This document shows positions 27,437 through 62,630 of a stretch of 64,000 bases of DNA, piece by piece; position 1 is the first letter of the stretch, and each line of letters opens with the position of its first letter. A model generated the notes under the pieces. It was not told the DNA's origin. It did not search any database and was given only the letters and a program-made list of their open reading frames with translations. The DNA is taken from contig OZ038454.1 in the NCBI GenBank assembly GCA_964036195.1, positions 10,106,001 to 10,170,000 of the forward strand. Reading direction: 5' to 3'. The position numbers and the translations under genes were made by a program. The DNA is from Sphaerolaimus hirsutus. Taxonomy: Eukaryota > Nematoda > Chromadorea > Monhysterida > Sphaerolaimidae.

Positions 27437-28653
27437 ATGGATAAAAATACAAAGCCATTTGTCGAGGATTGTCCCATTGCAGGGCTCAAAGTTATCCATC
27501 CGAAAGTGTTCCCGGATAGTCGGGGCTATTTCAGCGAGGTTTATAATAAAGTGGAGTGGGCCAGGGAAATCGACTTTCACGAGGAGTTTGTGCAGGTATC
27601 TTTTTCTATGGAGCCCCACACACTAGTTGACATTTTGTTTTTCCTATCGAAAACGTCATCTCGATGTCAACTGAGTTCAATGGTCAGATAATTTAATCGT
27701 TTGTGCACACTTACTTTACCAGTAACATTGCTAAAACAACAAGTTACGGCTGTGAAGTGACAAAAGCACACCGAAGCTATATGCCTATAAGTCGTTGTTA
27801 ATGCGCTTAAGTTTTTTAGATCTTCCGGACTAGTGATGTAAAAGCGCCATGGCGATTTTGGCGCTTTTGGCGCTTGGCGCTATCTTGCTGTGGCGCCATA
27901 AGCGCTTGGCGCCAATCCCATGAAAACCGCCATTACGCTTTTGGCGCTTGGCGCTATTTTTCCCCGCGCCAGGAACAAAATGCCTGACGCTGGCGCCAAA
28001 GTCCTGGCGCTTTTTACACCACTATTCAGGACCTTCATGACACTATATGATGTGAAAAAGATTGACAACATCTTCAAAAAATTTAATTCATCCCAGCATT
28101 CAACATTTCAGGACAACCATTCATACTCGCATCATGCCGTACTGCGTGGACTTCACGCCCAACCCAAAATGGGCAAACTTGTGCAAGTAATTTCTGGAGA
28201 AATTTACGACGTGGCAGTGGACATCCGCCCAAATTCCCAAACGTATGGGAAGCATCACGGAATTATTCTGAATGACAAGGAAAAGAAATGTTTTTGGATA
28301 CCTGATGGATTTCTGCATGGATTTGTGGTGTGTTTAATTGTGTATTTTTATACATCATGATTTCTATAGGTATTTGTTTTTTTATATTTACCTAGTTAGC
28401 TGTAATGCATTTTGTGACGTTTATGCGCTTGTGTTTTGCTTTCACAATTCGAATACGATGTTTTTTGCAGGTATTATCACGAGAAGGTGCACACGTTGTC
28501 TACAAATGCAGCGCGGCGTATGACAGCGCTACCGAATTTGGAATCAACGCCTTCGACCCTGCCTTGGCAATAAATTGGCCAATTGCCAAAGAGCAATGTG
28601 TCATAAGTGACAGGGACAAGGCACATTGTTGCCTGAAAGACAGAAGTGCGTGA
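27437..28653 (+). CDS. dTDP-4-dehydrorhamnose 3,5-epimerase (RmlC family)
   Basis: Exons 27437-27595, 28112-28327 and 28471-28653, all phase 0, give 185 aa, the usual family length. Signature segments occur in order: FPDSRGYFSEVYN (28-40), FVQDNHSYS across the first junction, VLRGLH (active-site His), GKLVQVISGEIYDVAVDIRP, WIPDGFLHGFV, then VVYKCSAAY (Tyr) and a late D-P-x-L-x-I-x-WP block with SDRDK near the end. The family epimerises C3 and C5 of a 4-keto-6-deoxy sugar nucleotide on the route to activated rhamnose, in the cytosol. The frame is clean and the catalytic His, Tyr and Asp positions look present. Intron 1 (516 nt) is partly occupied by a hAT-like element. The partner dehydratase and reductase are not in the window. 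Confidence 0.9.
27831..28024. mobile_element. hAT-like non-autonomous element (GCGCCA family) in epimerase intron 1
   Basis: 194 bp, ends TAGTGATGTAAAAGCGCC and GGCGCTTTTTACACCACTA. Flanks TTCCGGAC and TTCAGGAC match at 7 of 8 positions, a slightly decayed 8-bp target duplication as hAT elements leave. The interior is a run of GCGCCA, its complement TGGCGC and GGCGCTTGGCGC modules. Wholly intronic. Confidence 0.8.
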
Positions 28654-35377: not shown

Positions 35378-35961
35378 AGGGGCAGTCCCAACTCCCAAGT
35401 CCTGTAAAGTGGAAAGTAAAGCATAAAATGTAAAGTCAAATGCAAAGTCAAATGTCATTTTTCATGCAAAGTGTCAAATGTAAAGTAAAGTGTAAAATCA
35501 AGTGTCAAAAGTAAAGTCAAATGCAAAGTCAAGTGTCAATTGTCATGCAAAGTGTCAAATGTAAAGTAAAGTGTCAATTGTGTATCCAAATCTTTTTTGT
35601 ATCCAAATCTTATGTCAAAAAATACTTTGGATACAAAAACATCAGATTTGGATACACAATTGACACTTTACTTTACATTTGACAGTTTGCATGACAATTG
35701 ACACTTGATTTTGCATTTGATTTTATATTTTACAGTTTACTTTACATTTGACACTTGACTTTACATTTGACATTTGACTTTGCATTTGACTTTACATTTG
35801 ACACTTTGCATGACAATTGACACTTGATTTTGCATTTGATTTTACATTTTACAGTTTACTTTACATTTGACACTTCACTTTACATTTGACATTTGACTTT
35901 GCATTTGATTTTACATTTGACACTTTACTTTACACTTTACAGGGCTTGGGATTGCCACCAG
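35378..35961. repeat. Long palindromic relative of the introner-like family
   Basis: Starts GGGGCAGTCCCAACTCCC and ends GGGCTTGGGATTGCCACCAG, close to the ends of the 150-200 bp elements at 52223, 55470, 62153 and 62419. The arms are TAAAGTCAAATG / CATTTGACTTTA modules around an inner hairpin (GTATCCAAATCTT, 35580-35655). Not at an identified exon junction. A larger, possibly older relative. Confidence 0.6.
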
Positions 35962-52099: not shown

Positions 52100-54588
52100 G
52101 TACATGGCCGTGCCGCTGACCATCGGCCACGTGGCCACAACTGCATCATCTATCTTGATCGTTCTAGCCACGGCAGAAAGGGCCGTTGTAGTGCGAGCGA
52201 TTTCTCCGGGTACTACGACCAGGTGCCAGTCCCAGACCCTGTAAAATGCCCTGTAAAAAATCAAATGTCATGCAAAGTGTCAAAAGTCTTGGAAAATGCC
52301 CGGTAAAATGGCAAACGTACGTTTGCCATTTTACCGGACATTTTACGTAATTCTTGACTCTTTCAGTGACATTTGACATTTTACAAGGCATTTTACGGGG
52401 TCTGGGACTGCCTCCAGACACAGGCGGCTGAAGGAATTTTTCACCACGAGAAGACTCTTTCTGATAATATTTGCCATGCTCATGGCCCTGTTGTCGAAGG
52501 GCACCATTTTCTGCGAAATCAGAGTTTGTTTTTGGAGCTTGGAAATCTTAATGTTTTTGACGGTGAACTCGCTGAACGCTGGTCAACTGAAGTTGACATT
52601 TCTCAGGTATTCCCAACCGGTTGCGATGATCCAATGACCGCCTTCGGTGCATCACTGTCAGATTTGGTCAAGAGAAATTGGCTGTACGGAGTATTCTTTC
52701 GATTTTGGTACAGAAACGTCATCACAGTATTTTTGCCGTTCGTATTATGCTTCATCTTGAACATTATTATTCTGAATGTGCTGCACGAGCAGCACGCGCA
52801 GCCGAACAAAACTGCGCATCGATCTCATAGATCGGTTAGTTCGCCGATGAAATTACAATCAGGGGGCAGTCCCAAGCCTTGTAAGGTGTGCAAAGTAAAG
52901 TGTCAAATGTCAATCAAAGCAAAAATAGAAGATTTTTGTACTGAAATTTGCATTACAATTGACACATTAGCTTACGTTTGTCATGACGATTGACATTTTG
53001 CATGATGTTTTACATGACATTTGACACTTTACTTTACACTTTACAGGGTCTGGGATTGCCGCCCGGTAAACTGATAATTTTTGGGCACCCCGATTCATCA
53101 TAAATTTATGACAGCCTATAAATGCCAATACCCAATCCCATAAATGGAAAATATGTCGCTCTAAAAAAATTCACGCATCGCGTCCATGCAGCCAGTTTAG
53201 CGCATTCCATTTATCAGACAACGGATGTTTTGAATTTCTGCTCAACGTGCTTCTGCCTGTCCGGTTATGCGGAAATTTATGAGCACAGATGTCTTCTTAT
53301 GCAGGTTCTACATTCTAAATACAAAAATAGATGTATACTAATAAAATACGTACTCACAGTACACAATGGCTCTGCGCACACTAGTTTACTGCCAGATTTT
53401 GATAAACTCAAAGATCCGCTTTGAACGCATTTGAGTTTACTGGAATGAGGTATTCTTAATCCAAACGAATGAGTTGACTAAAATCTCTCAGTGTGTACGC
53501 ACGCGCAATACACAAAACACAGTAGGTAAATTAATAAATTCATCAACAATCATCAATAACATAAATCAATAAATGCCGCTCGCACACAGGAAGCGATCCG
53601 GGCTGCCACCAGAATGTTAGCAACCATTGTCACAACATATTTGATAGCCAATGCCGTTGACGTCATAGTCACCGTGTGGGAATTCATCGACTTCGATAGT
53701 CTTTATAGCCTTGGGCCAATTTATACCTATGCCAGCGACATTGTGGGTTTGCGGGTTTCAATTTTTTCAATTTGGAAGTTGGAATTTTTGGGGGAGTTTT
53801 GAAGGTTACTCGCCTGATCCGTGATTCCGGTGGCAATTTTTTTGGCCATACCTAGCAGTAACTTTGTTCGGAATAACCATCCGGGTCGCCAGATTTTTTC
53901 ATCAACATTTTCGCGGTGTTTCACTGTAATTTTATAACGTGGTAAAAATACTAAATAGTTAACCACTTTCTGACTGGCATTGTGGGATTAGTTATTGAAA
54001 TAAGACTGTATGCAACATCGGGCCAGATTTGTGGCGCAAAGCCACTCAATGGCGTCAGCGCCGGCACAAAAATCGCCGTCTAATCTCGCATGATTCTCCT
54101 AATTCAGTCTGAAATCCATGATACAAAGAAGCCAATCGCATTAACGAAAGATCAAACGCAATTTTCCTTCCGGGTGCCTGCCCCAAACCCTGTAAAATGT
54201 AAAATGTCATGTTAAAGCACTGTAAAATGCCAAAAGTCACGCAAAGTGTAAAAATTCATGTAAAATACCCTGTAAATTGGCAAACGTATGTTTTCCAGTG
54301 TCATTTACAAGACATTTGCCATTTGACAGGAAATTTTACAGGGTCTGGGACTGCCTCCGCCTGTCATCAAACCTTACATTTCAATCCAACCCTCACCCCA
54401 GGTGTCCGTGCTGCGCGTGATGGTGTCCGCCCTGCGCCTGCCCATCTACTGCGCGTGCAGCGCCGAGGTGCGCACCGACCTGCGCTACTTGTGCACCGGG
54501 CAGCGGCCGGTCGAGTTGGCCATGTCCGAAACTACCAGAGACTATACTTCCGAGGCGCTGAGCATCGTGCACGATTGCAGGGTGAATG
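52100..54588 (+). CDS. Peptide GPCR, FMRFamide/myosuppressin-receptor type, TM3 to TM7
   Basis: Exons 52100-52222 (TM3: GHVATTASSILIVLATAER, with ERA in place of the usual E/DRY), 52418-52834 (TM4 RLFLIIFAMLMALLSKG; TM5 FRFWYRNVITVFLPFVL and FILNIIILNVL), 53590-53742 (TM6 AATRMLATIVTTYLIAN then TVWEFIDFD; start of TM7) and 54402-54588 (end of TM7 SALRLPIYCAC then AEVR). Junctions fit in phase. Within the second exon the frame shifts by one base between the TM4 end (IFCEIRV) and the second extracellular loop, near 52520-52550: a sequencing slip in a T-run, or a real lesion. TM1-2 are not found. The WEF-I-D and F-x-F-W-x-x-N-I-x-T-V-F-x-P-F style segments are typical of this invertebrate neuropeptide receptor group; the ligand is unknown. 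Intron 52223-52417 is an introner-like element, in intracellular loop 2. Confidence 0.8.
52223..52417 (+). repeat. Introner-like element forming an intron in the GPCR
   Basis: 195 bp. Begins GTGCCAGTCCCAGACCCTG and ends GGGTCTGGGACTGCCTCCAG. The first two bases are the donor and the last two the acceptor, and removal joins ..ACC-AG to A-CAC-AGG.. in frame (phase 2). The arms (AAATGTCATGC, CATTTTACAGGG) are complementary, so the intron can fold end to end. No ORF. Confidence 0.85.
52860..53065 (-). repeat. Introner-like element copy, inverted, inside a GPCR intron
   Basis: Starts CAGGGGGCAGTCCCAAGCC, the complement of the usual right end, and ends GGGTCTGGGATTGCCGCCC. In this orientation its termini do not coincide with an exon boundary; it lies within the intron between TM5 and TM6. 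About 205 bp, with arms of GTAAAGTGTCAAATG. Confidence 0.65.
54172..54358 (+). repeat. Introner-like element copy inside a larger GPCR intron
   Basis: GGTGCCTGCCCCAAACCCTG to GGGTCTGGGACTGCCTCC, about 187 bp. The terminal AG has been lost (CTCCG), and the true acceptor is 43 bp downstream at 54400-54401. Either a decayed introner whose acceptor was replaced, or a later insertion into an existing intron. Confidence 0.7.
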
Positions 54589-54801
54589 GTTGGTGGATGA
54601 TTAAATGTGTTCACGGTGGAATTCTAATTAGAAGAGAAAATGATGAGTGAAGTGGGAAGAGACTTGTAAAAAGCAACGGCAATCCAAGCAGTGACCAAGT
54701 GGAAAAATTTATGGTGTGGGTAGATTTGGCGTCACGGTGGCACCATTCCATGTGTAAACATTTATTACGTAAATACCTTCGCCGTTCTCAAAAAAACCCA
54801 G

Positions 54802-56631
54802 ACGAGGCATCGCGCAATTCGAAACGCCGACAGATGGTTGCGAAGCGTTCCGTGCCGGCCATGAAGTTACTCCACGAATCGTTCGATCGTGCCAGGTATT
54901 TAAAAAAATATTATATCTTAAAAGGTTTCGTCAGGAGGTTTTGGTGCAAAATCTACTCGGGAACATTTATTATTCGAGAAATTTTCCATAAAATTTCCCA
55001 TTCGAAGTGTGAAAGAATTGACATTTCATTACAGTTCAGTATTTATCAAGTACTAATCAAAATCTTAGTGGGACTTGGCATCTTTCTGAATATTATGCAA
55101 AGCATAGCGACATTATAATAGGCATCATTCCTCCCAACACGTTCGAGTGCGCCCCCCCCCCCCCAGGCGGCGCTGTTCATCCGCCTCCGGAAAAGACAAG
55201 CGCCCATCCGTGGGCGAGAACGCTGCCGCTGCCCCGGACGCGGCCGCGACAGGGACCGACCCCGGCGGCATCGTGGCGCACGCGTCGCACCACCAGCCGG
55301 CCGTGCGCCGGTCGCTGCTGCAGCGCATCCGCTCCACCGGCCAGTTCTACACGACCGCCGACGAGTCGCCGCCGCGGCAGAACAATTTCCAGCAGATGAG
55401 CGCGCGGTGCGGCCGCGCCGCCCGCAAGAAGCACGGCAAGTGCAAGCGCGCCCGCCGGTTGGCCTACAGGTGCCAGTTCCGGACCCTGTAAAATGCCCTG
55501 TAAAATGTCAAAAGTCATGCAAAGTGTCAAAAGTCGTTTGCCGTTTGCCATTTTACATGCCTTTTGACACTTAGCATGACTTTTGACATTTTACAGGGCA
55601 TTTTACAGGGTCTAGGACTGCCCCCAGGCAGCACTCGAACAGCCAGCTCACGTTCACGCCCTGCGAGGAGCTCAGCATGGAGGAGGTGCGTGAATACTAC
55701 CAGAAAAGAAAATACCGTATTTACTCGAATCAATTCCCGGTGAATCGTTTTTCGTGAGAGCTTTTCGAGGGGGACTATTCTAGCGAGGAACTATTCGAGT
55801 GGGGGAATTATTATTTCATCAAAAAGTTGAAGCATGCATGTATCACATTAAACACGCATTATGTCCTGTTTCCGTTGAAAATGCACGTTCCATTGCATCT
55901 TTGCACACCGGATGTGCTGCATTTACATTCGATGAATCAAAGCGGACAGAGCCCGTGTGCTTTGTCTCGCTTCAGCGATTGTTTTTTTCAATATATGTGC
56001 ATTATTTCACTTCGGGAAGGGGGACCTATCCAAGGGAGAACTATTCGAGTAAATACTGCAGATGAGAAAGTTTTGGAATATTCGAACGCCCCCACCCATG
56101 CAGACGGCGCTGCGGAAATTCGAGACAACCGACACGGTGGTGCGCAACGGGCAGGCGCAGGTGCTGCACGAAGACAACAACAGCGCCAACGACAAACACC
56201 TAGACATGACCCAAGTCGTCTACTCGCCCGACTCGGCCGAGGTCTACGCCAATGAAGGTGCCATTTACGGGGCGGCACCGATCAAAGGCAGCCCCTCGGT
56301 GCGGCCGGGTTGCAGCGGCGCGCACTACGCGGCGCGGCTCGACGACGGTTACGACGCGACGTCGCCCAGTGCGTCGGCCAACTGCACGCCTAGGTTGACC
56401 ATGCGGCGCTTGGTGGCACAGGTCAGGCCCGGCGACAGCTGCAGCGTGAACAGCGCGGCCGCTGCGGCGCCGGGGCCGTTTTTCGGACTCAGCTTTGACA
56501 CGATCGACGCGTCCACGCCAGGTCTGCGTTTGGCCTTTTCGCTCCGACATTCTCTTGAGAGGAATTTCTATTTTGTAAAAAGACCCTGCAAAACAAAACT
56601 ATACCAGACAATGAATGATACCATATTTTGA
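54802..56631 (+). CDS. Probable cytoplasmic tail exons of the GPCR gene
   Basis: Exons 54802-54895, 55167-55469, 55628-55685 and 56104-56631 join in one frame and follow 54588 in phase. They encode a basic stretch (NSKRRQMVAK, CKRARRLAYR), Ala/Ser/Gly-rich low-complexity sequence and no membrane segment, ending at a TGA/TAA-type stop near 56631 with a possible earlier donor after CCACGCCAG (about 56520). GC content is much higher than surroundings, as expected for coding DNA here. No domain recognised. It fits a long intracellular receptor tail; it could instead be a separate downstream gene. An introner-like element forms the intron 55470-55627, and a CGAGTAAATAC element fills 55713-56067. 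Confidence 0.55.
55470..55627 (+). repeat. Introner-like element forming an intron in the tail region
   Basis: 158 bp, GTGCCAGTTCCGGACCCTG to GGGTCTAGGACTGCCCCCAG. Donor and acceptor are the element ends; splicing joins GCC-TAC-AG to G-CAG-CAC in frame (phase 2, as in the copy at 52223). The arms pair (AAAATGTCAAAAGTCATGC with GCATGACTTTTGACATTTT). Confidence 0.85.
55713..56067. repeat. CCGTATTTACTCGAAT-family TIR element in an intron
   Basis: Starts ACCGTATTTACTCGAATCAA and ends ACTATTCGAGTAAATACTGC. Wholly within the intron 55686-56103. The middle has GC-poor unique sequence without a recognised ORF. Confidence 0.6.
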
Positions 56632-56744
56632 TGAATAAGGTCACGTGAAAAAATTTTATGCAAAATTAACCAACAGTGGGAGCAACCGAGCAATGTGATG
56701 TGATGAGAAAAAAGTTAATGTCTGTTCGTTTATTCAGATGGAAT

Positions 56745-57372
56745 TAGGGTGTCAAATTTCCGTTTTCCATTTTCCGTTTCCGTTTTCCGCAGGCATTTTT
56801 TTTCCGTTTTCCGTTCCGTTTTCCGGCCGCTGAAATTTTTTTTCTGTTTTCCGTTCCGTTTTCCGGCCACTTTTTTTCCGTTTCTGTTTTCCAGCTCATT
56901 TTCCGTTTTCCGGTTAAATTTTCAGTTTTTCCGCCTTTTTTCCGTTTTCCGGCTCAATTTCCAGTTTTTCCGCCTTTTTTTTGTTTTCCGCCTCAATTTC
57001 CTGCTTTCCGCATCATTTTACCCTTTTCTGGCTCAACTTTCTGTTTTCTGTTCCAGCCAAACTGGTAAACAGTCATGCAGATTGTCAATTATGTGAAAAA
57101 AATTCCGTTTCCAGCAAAATTTAAGCAAATTTTATCGTTTTTTTGGCAAAATTTCAGCAAATTTTTCCATTTCCATGCAAATTCCATTTTTCCGTTTCCG
57201 TTTTTCCGGCCCCTTTTTCCGTTTTCCGGCCACTGAATTTTTTTTTCCGTTTCCGTTTCCGTTTTCCGCCAAGTGCAAATTTTTTTCCGTTTTCCGTTCC
57301 GTTTTCCGGCCGCTGAAATTTTTTTTCCGTTTCCGTTTCCGTTTTCCGTCAAAAATGTTTTTTGACACCCTA
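56745..57372. mobile_element. hAT-like non-autonomous element, TAGGGTGTCAAA family, 628 bp
   Basis: Ends TAGGGTGTCAAA and TTTGACACCCTA, exact 8-bp duplication GATGGAAT at 56737-56744 and 57373-57380. The interior is almost entirely TTTCCGTTTTCCG repeats, which create long open frames of Phe, Arg, Pro and Ser that are not genes. Confidence 0.92.
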
Positions 57373-57380
57373 GATGGAAT

Positions 57381-58338
57381 ATGGTAGATTTCAATGTGTG
57401 CTGTTGGGTTTTTCAAATAGACTAGTCGCATTTTCTTTTCTTCCGAAATTTCATGGAAGGTGGAACCCTGACATCGTAAAATATCTAAAAATACCTACAA
57501 TACGACGCGCAACTGAAAAAATTTGGAAAAAATTCGCTACGCCGCAGGGAGCGACATTGCGGTGGCTATCAACGATATGAAGAGAATTTTGCGGGCCCCC
57601 GTGCAGGCAGCTTATGAGTGGTTGCTATAACATATAAATATTTAACCTGAATGTGACATTCACATACCGTATTACAGCGATCGCTAGGATTTATGACTTT
57701 AGTGGGGGTTCAGGTAAATTTGTTGCGGGGAGGGGGGGGGGGGGGTTGGCGGGGTTCATAGGTACGTATGTATTTCTTTCTGGCCGACTTAGGCAACCGG
57801 GTAAAAATTGCTGAAAAGTGCCCAAAAATAGGTAGGTAAAATATACAAATACATTTATGGCTAAAAATTATTGAAAAAAACAAGTACCTAGGTATTATAT
57901 AAAATAATATATAGGTAAATACCTAGGTATGTGTGAGGAAAATCGATTTTATAGATGAAGATTTTAAAGATAAACTAAAATTGGCAGCTTTTTGTGAAAA
58001 TTCGTGTATTTAAATCAATTCGAAATAGCCTCCGCATAGGTGGATATTGATAGCTGGTTGACTTGGGAAGGGAGGGAGTAGGTAGCCAAACAATTCACCT
58101 CAGAATGTATAGGAATATAGCTGAACGGGGTCTGGGAAAAACAGATAGCTGGAGCGTTTGAGGGGCCTTTAATGGCAATCCCCCATTGACTGCCCCTACC
58201 ATCCCACTTTGAATAACTCCCTAGTAGCCACCAAATTGGGGAAAAAGTCTTCCTGTGGAGGTGGTTGAATTCTGAAAAAATGAAACTCCCCAGAACCCAC
58301 TCCGATCAAAAAAGTATGGAGGAAAAATGACTACCAGG
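57381..58338. other. AT-rich intergenic DNA
   Basis: No gene seen. 57720-57760 is a G-rich tract. Includes several ATACCTAGGTA short palindromes near 57885-57930. Confidence 0.4.
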
Positions 58339-59667
58339 TAACGATGGCAAAAAAAGATTCGAAAATTCGAAAACATTTTCGAATTTTCGAATTTTTTCAT
58401 AATTTTCGAATTTTTATTTCACCCCTAGAAAAAAACACTTAAAAATCGATTTATTTTTCAAAAAATTCGAAAATTCGAAAATTCAAAAATTCGAAAATAC
58501 TTTTCGAATTTTTCAGGGAATTCAAGGCAACAAAACAAACTCTTAAGTTCAACGTGCTCAATAAACTGTCAATTGGTACGCGGTGCGTATGAAAAAGCGA
58601 AACAAAACAAAAAAACGTCCAAAAACGTTGAAATGTAAAATGCCCTGTAAAATGTGGAATGTCATGCAAGTGTCAAAAGTTATGAAAATGCCCGGGAAAA
58701 TGGTTAACATATTTGCAATTTTCCACAGCATTTCCATGACTTTAGACACTTTGCATAACATTTGACATTTCACAGAGCATTTTACAGGTGTCTGGGATGG
58801 CCCATAGGAACTGCACATATTTATAAGTATACTCGGTGAACATGATACTCTGCCGTCGTACTGATTTATGTCTCACGTTGGAAGTGTGCCAATAATCATA
58901 AAGCCTGCTTTTTTGTATAAAATATGAAAAAATCCTTGTTGTGAATAAGTTAACGTATCACGTTATAACTGAGATGAATTCTTTCAACTTTTTATAAAAA
59001 TCACATGCATAGAAAAATATTTGGCATGCTTTCAGCAGGAACCACACATGCAGGGTGTAATGTTACTGGAGTATAAAAAAGATGTGATCAAAGATATTAT
59101 CAAAGAAGAGTGGTTTGTAAAGTATTTACCTGTATCTTGTGAAGTTAGCACTGTATGCACTGAGTACGCTCAGTGCACTATACTCAGGCGACATTACACT
59201 GTACATTTTTCTGGAGGTAACACTCCATCATGACATCATAACCACAGTTGGCAGTGAACTTACAGCTCACTGAACCGGTTCAGAGTTGGGATGAAGTGGA
59301 GTGGAGTGGGGAGTCGGTTCACAAGTTTTCGGTTGGCTGTCTGCCAGCCAAAGACATAAATCATATCTATTTGTAGAGTATCACATCTGCCGAGTATAGC
59401 CACTTCCAAAACAGTCCAAATTCTTCATTCAAAACTTCAGATTCAATATTTTTACAAAAAAATTCGAAAATTATTTGAAAAAATTCGAAAAATAGCCAAA
59501 AAAATTCGAAAATTGCCAAAAAAGATTCGAAAATTCAAAAATTCGAAAATTAAATTCGAAATTCGAAAATTCATTTCAGGAAAAATTCGAAAATTCGAAA
59601 ATTCATTTCGGAAAAAACACTTAAAAATTACTACTAATACTTTTTTTTGGAGCGTTTGCCATCGTTA
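58339..59667. mobile_element. hAT-like TIR element with TTCGAA arms and nested insertions, 1329 bp
   Basis: Ends TAACGATGGCAAAAAA and TTTGCCATCGTTA; flanks CTACCAGG and CTATCAGG match 7 of 8, a likely target duplication. The arms (58355-58510 and 59455-59630) are AAAATTCGAA repeats. Inside lie an introner-like fragment (58632-58804) and an inverted-repeat element bounded by TATACTCGG / CCGAGTATA (58830-59398). Confidence 0.75.
58632..58804. repeat. Introner-like element relative, not at an exon
   Basis: AAATGCCCTGTAAAATG-type left arm and CATTTTACAGGTGTCTGGGAT right end. The left CAGTCCCAGACC terminus is missing. Sits inside the TTCGAA element. Confidence 0.55.
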
Positions 59668-61191
59668 CTATCAGGGGGAGTTATTCAGAGTAATATGGTA
59701 GCCTGACAGCTGTTTTTAACAATTAAAATATGTTGGCTACTTTAGGATAGGTAAATTATGTATTGAATAGGTTATGCTTTTGATCGTTGAGATAGTCAAG
59801 GATATTATAGCTGCCTGGAATCTCGGGCGGGCCTAGTTGGCAAACGTCACTGTTGGATCTTTATGATACTTATATCATACTGTATTTCCTAAAATTGGCC
59901 CCCTACTCAAAATACACTCGGATACAGGTAAACTGAAGAAAAACGTTGTTTGAACCCCCCCCCCCCCCCCGCCACCCACTTCTGAATATTGGGCCCGCTG
60001 GGAATGATAAATACAAGATGGGAAAATGCAATCAGGCGCTCAGCCACTAGGCACCATCTAGAATCCCTTATAATAAGTCTAACGAACAGTAAAAAAAACA
60101 AAATGAAATTTGATGGAAAAATGACGACAGGACATAAAAACGACATGACTTTTGAGAATTTTCATGACACTCGACATTTTATTTGCGTGGTGGGATAAAA
60201 AAACGACAACAGAATTACGGCAAAAAAACATAACTGGACGCGCCGATTTCGAGGAAATACAGTATTTACATAGGCGATGCGCACACTAGTAAAATATGAT
60301 ACACCACCATAATTTGGGAAACTCGTAAATCTATTTCTAATTTTCCACAATGAGGAGTCTGTCAACTTGTTGACGGCGATCAGTAATCATTCATTCTGGT
60401 GAACTCAAATGTGCTCAAAAGTTTGCCAAATGTTAGTGGAGTGCTAGGTATGTCATCAGTGTGCTCCACATGTGTGTGTATGTAGATGAAGCAAATCATT
60501 CAATATTCTTGTCAGGTAAATTTTGTTAAAAGCACCTCAATACATTGTTCCGCATTTGTATACTCATCGGACTGAACGCTTTACGAAGAGTATTACCGTA
60601 CTTTACTGATTAAAATCATCTGACAAATTGTGCACCAAATAAACCAATAGTGATGGGTTGTCATGTTACGAGTAAATATATAAAAAACTACCTGATGTGT
60701 CGTGGCAGATCAATTAAACCGTACGGCCGATGAACTGCGTCCGAACGTTTTTAGTTGCCTTTTTTCCTTTATACATTGAAAAAGCCTATAAAAAGCCTGT
60801 TTGAAATACGTTTTCTGTACTCGCGTACTTTCAAATAGTATGCGAGTAAGTGAGTACCGGAATTTTTTTCCGGAGGAAACGTAAACGTGTTTACGCAGTA
60901 CTTGAGTATCCGTATTTATCGAGTAAACGTAAAAACGTTTTAACAACTATGATTCGGACTTCCAATTTTTGTGCTGTGTGTGGTGCGCCTACAACTATTG
61001 AGGTATTTTTGAAAAAACTAACTGTAGGTACAATACCCTTGTTGTTCTACTAGCAATCACGGATTTTCGTTGTAACTTTTAAAGTTTTTCCGCTCAAAAT
61101 GGCCTCTTTGATTGAATCTGTTTACAATCAACTTCAATTCACACATCACGGCGGGGAAAGTGGAAAACATAACAAAAACATATTTCGTGAG

Positions 61192-61335
61192 TACCCTATT
61201 TCTTCAATAGAACCTCCAATAGAACGGTACCTCCGTAGTAATTCAATCAAATACTACAAAAAGAACGGTTTTGACACGTTTTTGCACTCATGAAAAAAAA
61301 TAGGACGACGCTCTTCTATTAGAAGAAATGCGGTA
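61192..61335. repeat. Small AATAGAACGG-family TIR element
   Basis: TACCCTATTTCTTCAATAG to CTATTAGAAGAAATGCGGTA, 144 bp, with two CCAATAGAACGG units. A short relative of 40811-41267. Confidence 0.65.
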
Positions 61336-61630
61336 GTTCGAATTGGAAACTCAAACATAAACTGTTTACAGCAAAAACACAGCTCTCGGTGCAAAACTAG
61401 CACTGGCGTCAGATTACATGCAGCGAGGAATGTGAACACAACGTTTTTAAACGATTCCAGGTATTCTTCCCTTCATGGACATCTTACCATGGAAGATGTC
61501 CAAGAAGGGAAGGTTTCCGGGGTCCTTTTTAAACACATCATTTGCATTTTTCTAGTTAGGGCTTGCAAGTAGACACCCCAGAGGGGAGTGAGTAGAGGAA
61601 TAACGTTTTCATTTTTCAGTTAGCAGCAGG

Positions 61631-61723
61631 TAGGGTGTCAAATTTCCGTTTTCGTTTCCGCTTTTCCGCAGGGAAATTTTTTACCTTTCCGTTTTCCGTA
61701 AAAAAATTTTTTTTGACACCCTA
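61631..61723. mobile_element. Minimal hAT-like element, TAGGGTGTCAAA family, 93 bp
   Basis: Ends TAGGGTGTCAAA and TTTGACACCCTA with only TTTCCG motifs between. Exact 8-bp duplication GCAGCAGG at 61623-61630 and 61724-61731. The smallest mobile copy here. Confidence 0.92.
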
Positions 61724-62041
61724 GCAGCAGGTATAAAAACAAAGATCGTATTTGTGTGTTATTATTTGTACTTCAGAAATACGCGTACACTGCACAACTT
61801 TGCTTTTTTGTATACATATCTTATTTATACCACAATCACATGAAAGTATAAATTATCCCGTGTTGAAAGCAATGTATAGTAGAAAAGCATTCATTATTTA
61901 GTGGGAATATGGTAGAATTCGGTGCAAAGTGTGCAGTCAGCAAGTAGACTCAAAATTTTTTCTTGCATCAGACGACTATCCAACCACTGACAAAAGGTGA
62001 GCACTACAAGCGTACTTCCACATACTCGAAGCGGTGAAAAG

Positions 62042-62630
62042 ATGGCCATAAAGCATGCCATGATGTGGGCCATAGCCGTGGCACTGCTGCCGCTGGCAAA
62101 CGGCAACATTGAAATGCTGGGCTTGTCGCTGCCAGTGAAAGAGTAGGCCCAGGTGGCATTCCCAGACCCTGTAAAATGTCTAATGTCATGCAAAGTGTCT
62201 AAAGTCATGCAAAATGTCTCGAAGATGCCCTACGTTTGCCGTTTTGCAGGGCATTTTACCTGACGTTAGACATTTTACAGGCTCTGGGATTGGCACCAGA
62301 CAGGAATGCTGGGCTTGTGCCCCAACGCGTCTGCGTGCATCGGGCGGAGCATCAACAACTTAGATGAACGCATGAACTATCGCACCGCTAAGAAAGACGG
62401 CAAGAGAACTGTACCCAGGTGCCAGTACCAGACCCTGTAAATGCCATGTAAAATGTCAATTGTCGTGCAAAGTGTCAAAAGTCATGGAAAATGCCCTGCA
62501 AAATGGCAATCTAGTTGCCATTTTGCAGGGCATTTTCCATGACTTTTGACGTTTTGCATGACAGTCGACATTTTATAGGGCATTTTACAGGGTCTGGGAC
62601 TGCCCCCAGATATGTGGATGATGTCTGCCA
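62042..62630 (+). CDS. Small possibly secreted peptide gene with two introner-like introns
   Basis: The ATG at 62042 opens a hydrophobic, signal-like N-terminus (MWAIAVALLPLANG). Exon 62300-62418 is open in one frame (CPNASACIGRSINNLDERMN) and runs in phase into 62610-62630, which ends at a GTAAGT donor, so more exons must follow outside my view. The first exon has an in-frame TAG at 62144 just before the element at 62153. However, ATGCTGGGCTTGT occurs both before (62114-62126) and after (62306-62318) that element, and the second copy continues the frame. Two Cys in the mature part; no family recognised. Could be a broken gene. Confidence 0.4.
62153..62299 (+). repeat. Introner-like element, 147 bp
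   Basis: GTGGCATTCCCAGACCCTG to GGCTCTGGGATTGGCACCAG. The right end (GGCACC) is the exact complement of the GGTGCC start of other copies, showing the full TIR. Preceded by CCCAG, followed by ACAGG. Flanked at a distance by a repeat of ATGCTGGGCTTGT. Confidence 0.75.
62419..62609 (+). repeat. Introner-like element, 191 bp
   Basis: GTGCCAGTACCAGACCCTG to GGGTCTGGGACTGCCCCCAG between exons 62300-62418 and 62610-62630; phase 2 again (CCC-AG joined to A-TAT). Arms GCAAAATGGCAA / TTGCCATTTTGC pair at the centre. Confidence 0.8.

Follow-up and report, generated by a model that had tools for sequence, protein, structure and literature searches.

The introners described by Gozashti et al. 2022 are short elements with terminal inverted repeats (TIRs), mostly consistent with DNA transposition and present in many copies; in some families one splice site comes from the element and the other from the target-site duplication (TSD), the reading frame being usually restored, according to the accessible text of that report (PMC9860276). 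In this work we analysed a stretch of 64,000 nucleotides from the nematode Sphaerolaimus hirsutus (contig OZ038454.1, positions 10,106,001 to 10,170,000; hereafter the window) and a family of hairpin TIR elements, four copies of which lie between putative exons there. An earlier sequence-only reading of the window had taken these elements for transposons that create introns; what it observed is partly confirmed, and its interpretation is supported by the comparisons presented here. The family resembles the Chrysochromulina introners of the same text (PMC9860276), which carry the 5' splice site and co-opt the 3' site, but there the TSD is 4 bp long and TIRs are absent, whereas here TIRs are present and the TSD is CWG.

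The target site recalls NuwaI, of the PHIS superfamily, which has a 5'-CWG-3' TSD and TIRs usually starting with GGG, and which is found in animals only (the available passages of PMC4482050 name fish, a coleopteran, a crustacean, a mollusc and an anthozoan as hosts, and no nematode). The CWG duplication is shared by our family; of its two ends, one reads GGGG, as would suit NuwaI, and the other GTGC, and no autonomous copy is linked to it. No intron formation by NuwaI is described in those passages. Hairpin introners with short direct repeats are also present in Amoebophrya, where repeats of 3-5 nt lie over the exon boundaries and the ends are non-canonical; this dinoflagellate, in the accessible part of the report (PMC7789003), shows a wide variety of boundary types, and over 60% of its introns are non-canonical, in contrast to the animal host, GT donor and two acceptor types proposed here. 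An animal with relaxed recognition of the 3' end, as we propose, is Fritillaria borealis, in which 95% of introns escape GT/AG and the U2AF subunits are duplicated, as given in the available portion of PMC13326754; unlike in that species, the few ordinary boundaries seen in our sequences are GT or AG. We found no introner family from nematodes or assigned to PIF/Harbinger in the literature searched, which was largely without subscription papers. The accessible main text of PMC9860276 lacks the words 'nematod' and 'harbinger', and a fungal paper holding both 'introners' and 'harbinger' in its accessible text (PMC8476143) lies outside the reach of this negative result.

Family size, ends and target site

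We consider it very likely that exonic insertions of this hairpin TIR family are removed as introns, splicing itself being deduced from genomic sequence, and the introner status of the family is strongly supported. The family is large: its 13-base TIR core, CAGTCCCAGACCC, has 2,599 forward and 2,514 reverse exact matches (5,113 altogether) in the 348-Mb genome of 762 contigs, against 5 and 5 for the reversed core. Read inwards, the ends are GTGCCAGTCCC at one side and GGGGCAGTCCC at the other. Left ends (CNGGTGCCAGTCCCAGACC) number 847 + 824 genome-wide and right ends (GGTCTGGGACTGCCCCCNG) 900 + 900; the adjoining triplets are 47 CAG, 43 CTG, 7 CGG and 3 CCG in the first 100 left ends listed, and 46 CAG, 27 CTG, 2 CGG and 1 CCG in the first 76 right ends listed. 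For 28 copies both ends appear in the two lists of contig C1 (15 CAG/CAG, 11 CTG/CTG, 2 CTG/CAG), and since the two flanking triplets are identical in 26 of the 28, the target duplication is a 3-bp CWG. The triplets are also concordant in 348 of the 430 exact-ended copies of the 165-195 bp size class found by a genome-wide pattern search.

The copies are hairpin miniature inverted-repeat transposable elements (MITEs) flanked by a 3-bp CWG TSD. Two of the window copies were folded, and each is predicted to form a single RNA hairpin (-137.4 kcal/mol, z -20.6, for copy 4 at 62419; -113.7 kcal/mol, z -16.7, for copy 1 at 52223) in which four bases at the start and seven at the end stay unpaired. 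Among copies of 165-195 bp, 430 have GTGC/GGGG ends, 23 GGGG/GGGG and 9 GTGC/GTGC, symmetric patterns, which match both strands, having been counted once. As GTGC is one-sided and the other end is GGGG, nearly every insertion starts with a GT donor on one strand. We infer that GGGG is the ancestral terminus of the GTGC end.

The sampled sequence comprised, besides the window, 28 loci of 3-9.9 kb and another 60 of 1 kb; it is not a genome-wide sample, because apart from the window all its copies lie on C1 below 9 Mb, whereas the pattern counts are genome-wide. The scan gave 121 GT-type left ends, 18 of them without a right end in range, and 18 more entries were dropped for unresolved duplication or duplicate flanks. 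The 85 entries left represent 80 elements, the symmetric L031, L061, L068, L075 and L077 having been entered once per strand; L013/L014 and L063/L066 resemble duplicates of single insertions. Their left/right triplets are CAG/CAG in 32, CTG/CTG in 31, CTG/CAG in 6, CAG/CTG in 3 and others in 13. Among the 63 CAG/CAG and CTG/CTG entries, C precedes the triplet in 40 and G follows it in 41, giving CCWGG as the preferred site. The median identity to the nearest full-length neighbour within the sample is 85.6% (75 of the 85 entries), which does not bear out the earlier description of the family as active. Some copies (L035/L037, L013/L015, L014/L016, L063/L066) recur on C1 in pairs that are identical or nearly so and have similar flanking sequence, and these pairs are probably recent segmental duplications carrying introners.

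Exonic copies in conserved genes

The introner interpretation is best judged in conserved genes. Sense open reading frames (ORFs) were picked by eye from joined flanks, 29 being searched in Pfam and five in PDB sequences, and 12 exonic copies, among them L068 from the antisense control described below, obtained profile support at E <= 1e-3 (Table 1). In these genes the whole intron consists of the element plus one TSD copy, whose removal restores conserved proteins of the same genome, in agreement with the claim that insertions of TIR transposons become introns. The junction is spanned by one alignment stretch in nine of the 12 (L032, L033, L044, L072, L073, L074, L081, L082 and L083): all five PDB alignments are gap-free there (STRADA, BCKDHA, SLC23A1, ALKBH7 and cyclin-Y), and four Pfam stretches run across it (OSCP1 twice, PAN and the Srx G-protein-coupled receptor, GPCR). 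Unspliced, all 16 copies checked would bring 1 to 6 in-frame stops into the reading frame. Of 18 exon boundaries listed for the supported genes, the eight that inspection by eye could locate are all GT or AG (AG upstream in L032, L072, L073 and L081; GT downstream in L032, L033, L073 and L082).

Some copies do lie within larger introns as we read them (52860 and 54174 in the window), and it could be thought that all are passengers in older introns, near splice sites by chance. This is very improbable, since in conserved genes the element with one TSD copy makes up the entire intron. Orientation also bears on how the copies are removed. The single GT end is on the sense strand of the gene in all 11 informative supported copies (two-sided P = 0.001); the twelfth, L068, is uninformative because it has GT at both ends. 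In ciliates, internal eliminated sequences are precisely removed at the DNA level, and such removal, indifferent to CAG or CTG, would account for exact restoration with one TSD copy left at both target types. However, it gives no reason for the orientation preference of the one-ended copies, nor for the right-end CAG being favoured, and we hold it to be very improbable too.

The explanation by splicing would work as follows. A NuwaI-like (PIF/Harbinger-related) non-autonomous hairpin transposon would insert at CCWGG, duplicating CWG, and its GTGC terminus supplies a GT donor on one strand. Where the target reads CAG on the coding strand, the second TSD copy would provide the acceptor AG, and removal of the stretch from GT to the end of this CAG would restore the frame exactly; the predicted hairpin, as long as the intron, would set donor and acceptor side by side. 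The sequence shows that the donor comes from the element and the acceptor from the duplicated target; the earlier attribution of both GT and AG to the element ends holds for GT and fails for AG. Intron gain at the positions of the copies is what we infer from two features, the TSDs and an intron made up wholly of the element. A protein search returned no transcript of the same species among the best 120 of 484 matches.

Some results weigh against this interpretation. The best Pfam stretch stops short of the junction in three of the 12 supported copies (L022, L053 and L068), and L053 and L068 score under Pfam's own cut-off. The antisense control itself speaks for the interpretation: among 30 of 70 listed ORFs plus one earlier ORF of L077, the only match at E <= 1e-3 was TRM6 (Gcd10p) at the two-GT-ended L068, whose gene-sense reading is CAG/CAG. 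Sense and antisense ORFs were, however, searched unequally (34 vs 31) and not always for the same copies. L077, of LITAF type by eye and without a LITAF match in Pfam, carries an antisense CTG/CTG copy and may be a true antisense case. Finally, a transposase partner for the TIR family was not found, the abundant DDE_Tnp_4 copies not being tied to the TIR.

In the same L077 gene another copy apparently uses an upstream GTGAGAAG donor. L032 and L033 (C1:3591465-3593330) belong to one OSCP1-like gene, with CTG/CTG and CAG/CAG copies 0.8 kb apart. A codon-usage classifier for the coding strand was discarded, as it called L083 antisense where homology says sense. A PDB search for L041 gave nothing useful, and a search of unassigned exons for chimeras gave no match at E <= 0.001.

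CTG targets and a possible TG acceptor

Since the TSD is CWG, only half of the targets give an AG, and about half of the landing sites would need a TG acceptor: as the TSD repeats three bases, the only form of exact excision starting with GT at a CTG target ends in TG. Five of the 12 supported copies (in BCKDHA, SLC23A1, ALKBH7, OSCP1 and a GPCR) are CTG/CTG and imply GT..TG introns. We see an even chance that the family makes GT..AG introns at CAG and GT..TG introns at CTG, the latter maturing by a T-to-A change. On a coding-strand CTG target, excision from GT to the duplicated CTG does restore conserved proteins; a spliceosome tolerating non-AG acceptors would remove such copies, less well, and T-to-A in the right TSD copy would later convert TG into AG. 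For C. elegans, splicing without a 3' AG has been reported (Aroian et al. 1993, from the part of that work available), and a root-knot nematode annotation is stated to have 5.34% non-canonical splice sites.

Genome-wide, the 430 copies comprise 232 CAG/CAG (by difference), 116 CTG/CTG, 60 CTG/CAG and 22 CAG/CTG, that is, CAG at the right end in 292 and at the left end in 254, with left-CTG/right-CAG well above the reverse (60 vs 22, P = 3e-5). If the right triplet serves as acceptor, TG is usable but inferior and T-to-A is favoured, this excess of right CAG is expected; CTG copies rescued in some other way would fit it as well. Three copies in coding-looking exons (L082, L067 and L052) have CTG on the left and CAG on the right and are candidate repaired acceptors; only L082 has profile support.

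The predominance of CAG/CAG over CTG/CTG (232 vs 116 in the 165-195 bp class) would also be expected if only CAG copies were spliced and the exonic CTG copies were recent damaging insertions in one assembled haplotype. Damage should hit either orientation, yet the five CTG/CTG copies among the 12 supported ones are all donor-sense (weak by itself, two-sided P = 0.06), and it is left-CTG/right-CAG that exceeds its reverse. We find this explanation improbable, and somewhat more so than the use of another acceptor by CTG copies, which is itself unlikely. The latter could involve mostly a GC donor (GT/GCCAGT, the slash marking the exon end) with TTTTACAG 19 nt upstream of the right end, or a nearby exonic AG. 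The GC-donor form would add 21 nt (7 residues), in-frame and stop-free for the phase-0 copies L032, L074 and L083, and TTTTACAG is acceptor-like for a nematode; the donor context is poor relative to the consensus. The AG at -19 tells nothing, because 29 of 32 CAG/CAG entries have it and CTG/CTG entries have it just as often (28 of 31); were it the usual acceptor, the genome-wide preference for right-end CAG would be pointless, and the seven-residue insert would fall within conserved segments. Codon-adding introners are present in Aureococcus, according to the accessible text of PMC9860276.

For each copy, GT/GC..AG alternatives near the ends were listed for the six smallest changes, and several of them count against TG acceptors. 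ALKBH7 (L073) has a GT..AG option with GAG 3 nt into the exon and one residue lost, OSCP1 (L032) has GT..AG options at the cost of a few exchanged residues, and the GC at +2 with TTTTACAG is available to L032, L074 and L083. Among the alternatives listed, L074, L081 and L083 have no GT..AG option in which the net change is less than 18 nt. In-frame exonization of the CTG copies was rejected on account of stops, which are present in all 12 supported copies. Lengths are divisible by 3 in 17 of 31 CTG/CTG entries (P = 0.02) and in 13 of 32 CAG/CAG entries, the difference between classes having P = 0.3. All five supported CTG/CTG copies have such lengths, although they contain stops; this pattern of lengths may be chance.

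Copies and genes of the window

The ends of all four exonic window copies were found where the sequence-only reading had placed them (Table 1), each copy being bounded by CAG/CAG. The window holds 11 left-end-like and 7 right-end-like matches (<=3 mismatches), with 0 expected from 100 shuffles. Copy 2 was too diverged for the left-end scan and is described from the window sequence.

Table 1. Features of the window, in window coordinates, and profile-supported exonic copies elsewhere in the sample
Feature	Position	Strand	Remarks
Degenerate long relative	35378..35700	+	GGGGCAGTCCCAACTCCC...; right end not delimited, end coordinate arbitrary
Copy 1, left target-site copy	52220..52222	+	CAG, exon end; genome-wide CWG duplication
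Copy 1, introner MITE	52223..52417	+	195 bp; GTGCCAGTCCC...GGGACTGCCTC plus right TSD CAG
Open frames 3' of copy 1	52418..52834	+	membrane-protein-like in two frames, receptor-like by eye
Passenger copy	52860..53065	-	reverse orientation, diverged ends; within apparent ordinary intron
Passenger copy	54174..54360	+	ends CGG / CCG; within apparent ordinary intron
Copy 2, left target-site copy	55467..55469	+	CAG
Copy 2, putative introner	55470..55627	+	158 bp, CAG/CAG; RRLAYR/QHSNSQ joined, phase 2, codon AG/G
Degenerate copy	58632..58806	+	apparently intergenic
Putative short first exon	62042..62152	+	in-frame TAG 62144-62146; alternative donor GTGAAAG 62135
Copy 3	62153..62299	+	147 bp, CAG/CAG; GT-type ends both sides (GTGGCATTCCC ... 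GGGATTGGCAC)
Putative middle exon	62300..62418	+	copy 3 to copy 4
Copy 4, putative introner	62419..62609	+	191 bp, CAG/CAG; phase 2 (VP/RYVDDVCQ stop)
Supported copies, CAG/CAG			L022 LRR, L033 OSCP1, L044 PAN, L053 zinc finger, L072 STRADA, L068 TRM6
Supported copies, CTG/CTG			L032 OSCP1, L073 ALKBH7, L074 Srx-type GPCR, L081 BCKDHA, L083 SLC23A1
Supported copy, left CTG, right CAG			L082 cyclin-Y

Open frames on both sides, which had been claimed for the window copies, are present at copies 1, 2 and 4 and absent at copy 3. Across copy 1 there are two of them, in phase 0 and phase 2, the latter resembling transmembrane segments 3 and 4 (TM3-TM4) by look; reading through the copy in phase 0 meets 3 stops. 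The frame continues in phase 2 across copies 2 and 4. At copy 3, the frame that opens with the ATG of position 62042 runs into the TAG directly 5' of the GT of the copy, and the donor at 62135, which would remove the TAG, is the only way to hold this frame open; the orientation of copy 3 is uninformative because GT is present at both its ends. Support for the genes of the window is weak. The label 'receptor' rests on appearance, because a Pfam search with the receptor-like and peptide-like products of the window gave no significant match, and the 'peptide gene' of the sequence-only reading is likewise unverified. The four further copies that it had listed are present, those at 58632 and 35378 being degenerate. 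A search of the window against Rfam gave nothing useful. Imperfect TTTTCCGTTTTCCG repeat arrays lie at 56764-57373 and 61643-61724, and an extra left-end-like match, CTG/GTGGCAAT, lies at 28043 (minus-strand coordinate) without a recognised right end.

Candidate transposases and host sequences

A transposase partner, for a PHIS element expected to be a DDE transposase together with a Myb/SANT protein, would carry GGGGCAGTCCCAGACCC termini. The genome contains at least 163 matches to PF13359 (DDE_Tnp_4), and among the TIR cores listed no exact one was found within 20 kb of the three matches listed on C1 below 6.33 Mb. More than 100 of the DDE_Tnp_4 matches are near-equal in score (e.g. C47:89409-90041), and most of these frames, of about 300 codons, contain TGA in frame exactly four times, TAA or TAG being rare, which may indicate an intron or something odder.

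With respect to the host sequences, 12 of the first 13 best matches listed for ALKBH7 are nematodes, the named matches of OSCP1 begin with Plectus sambesii, after two contigs, and one receptor matches Srx in Pfam. These matches make a nematode host likely. The mitochondrial COI forms one frame when TGA is read as W and AGA as S, and shares only about 70% identity with named species, most of them arthropods, Halicryptus being another. The nearest relatives of this COI (L089, C762:1905-3239), at 91% and 82%, are found only in 'lgn' contigs.

Conclusions

The origin of introns is a long-standing question for which, to our knowledge, there are few animal cases. Here, one animal genome contains insertions by the thousand that bear target duplications, the target site connects introners with a transposon group that has a name, and a base change at one terminus would be the source of the donor. 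The use of CTG targets in addition to CAG is, as far as the sequences indicate, what is new here. If the CTG copies are spliced, a tolerated non-canonical acceptor and its later repair to AG would be traceable copy by copy. Moreover, if true, tolerance of non-AG acceptors would double the insertion sites that can be survived, making the genome permissive to introners.

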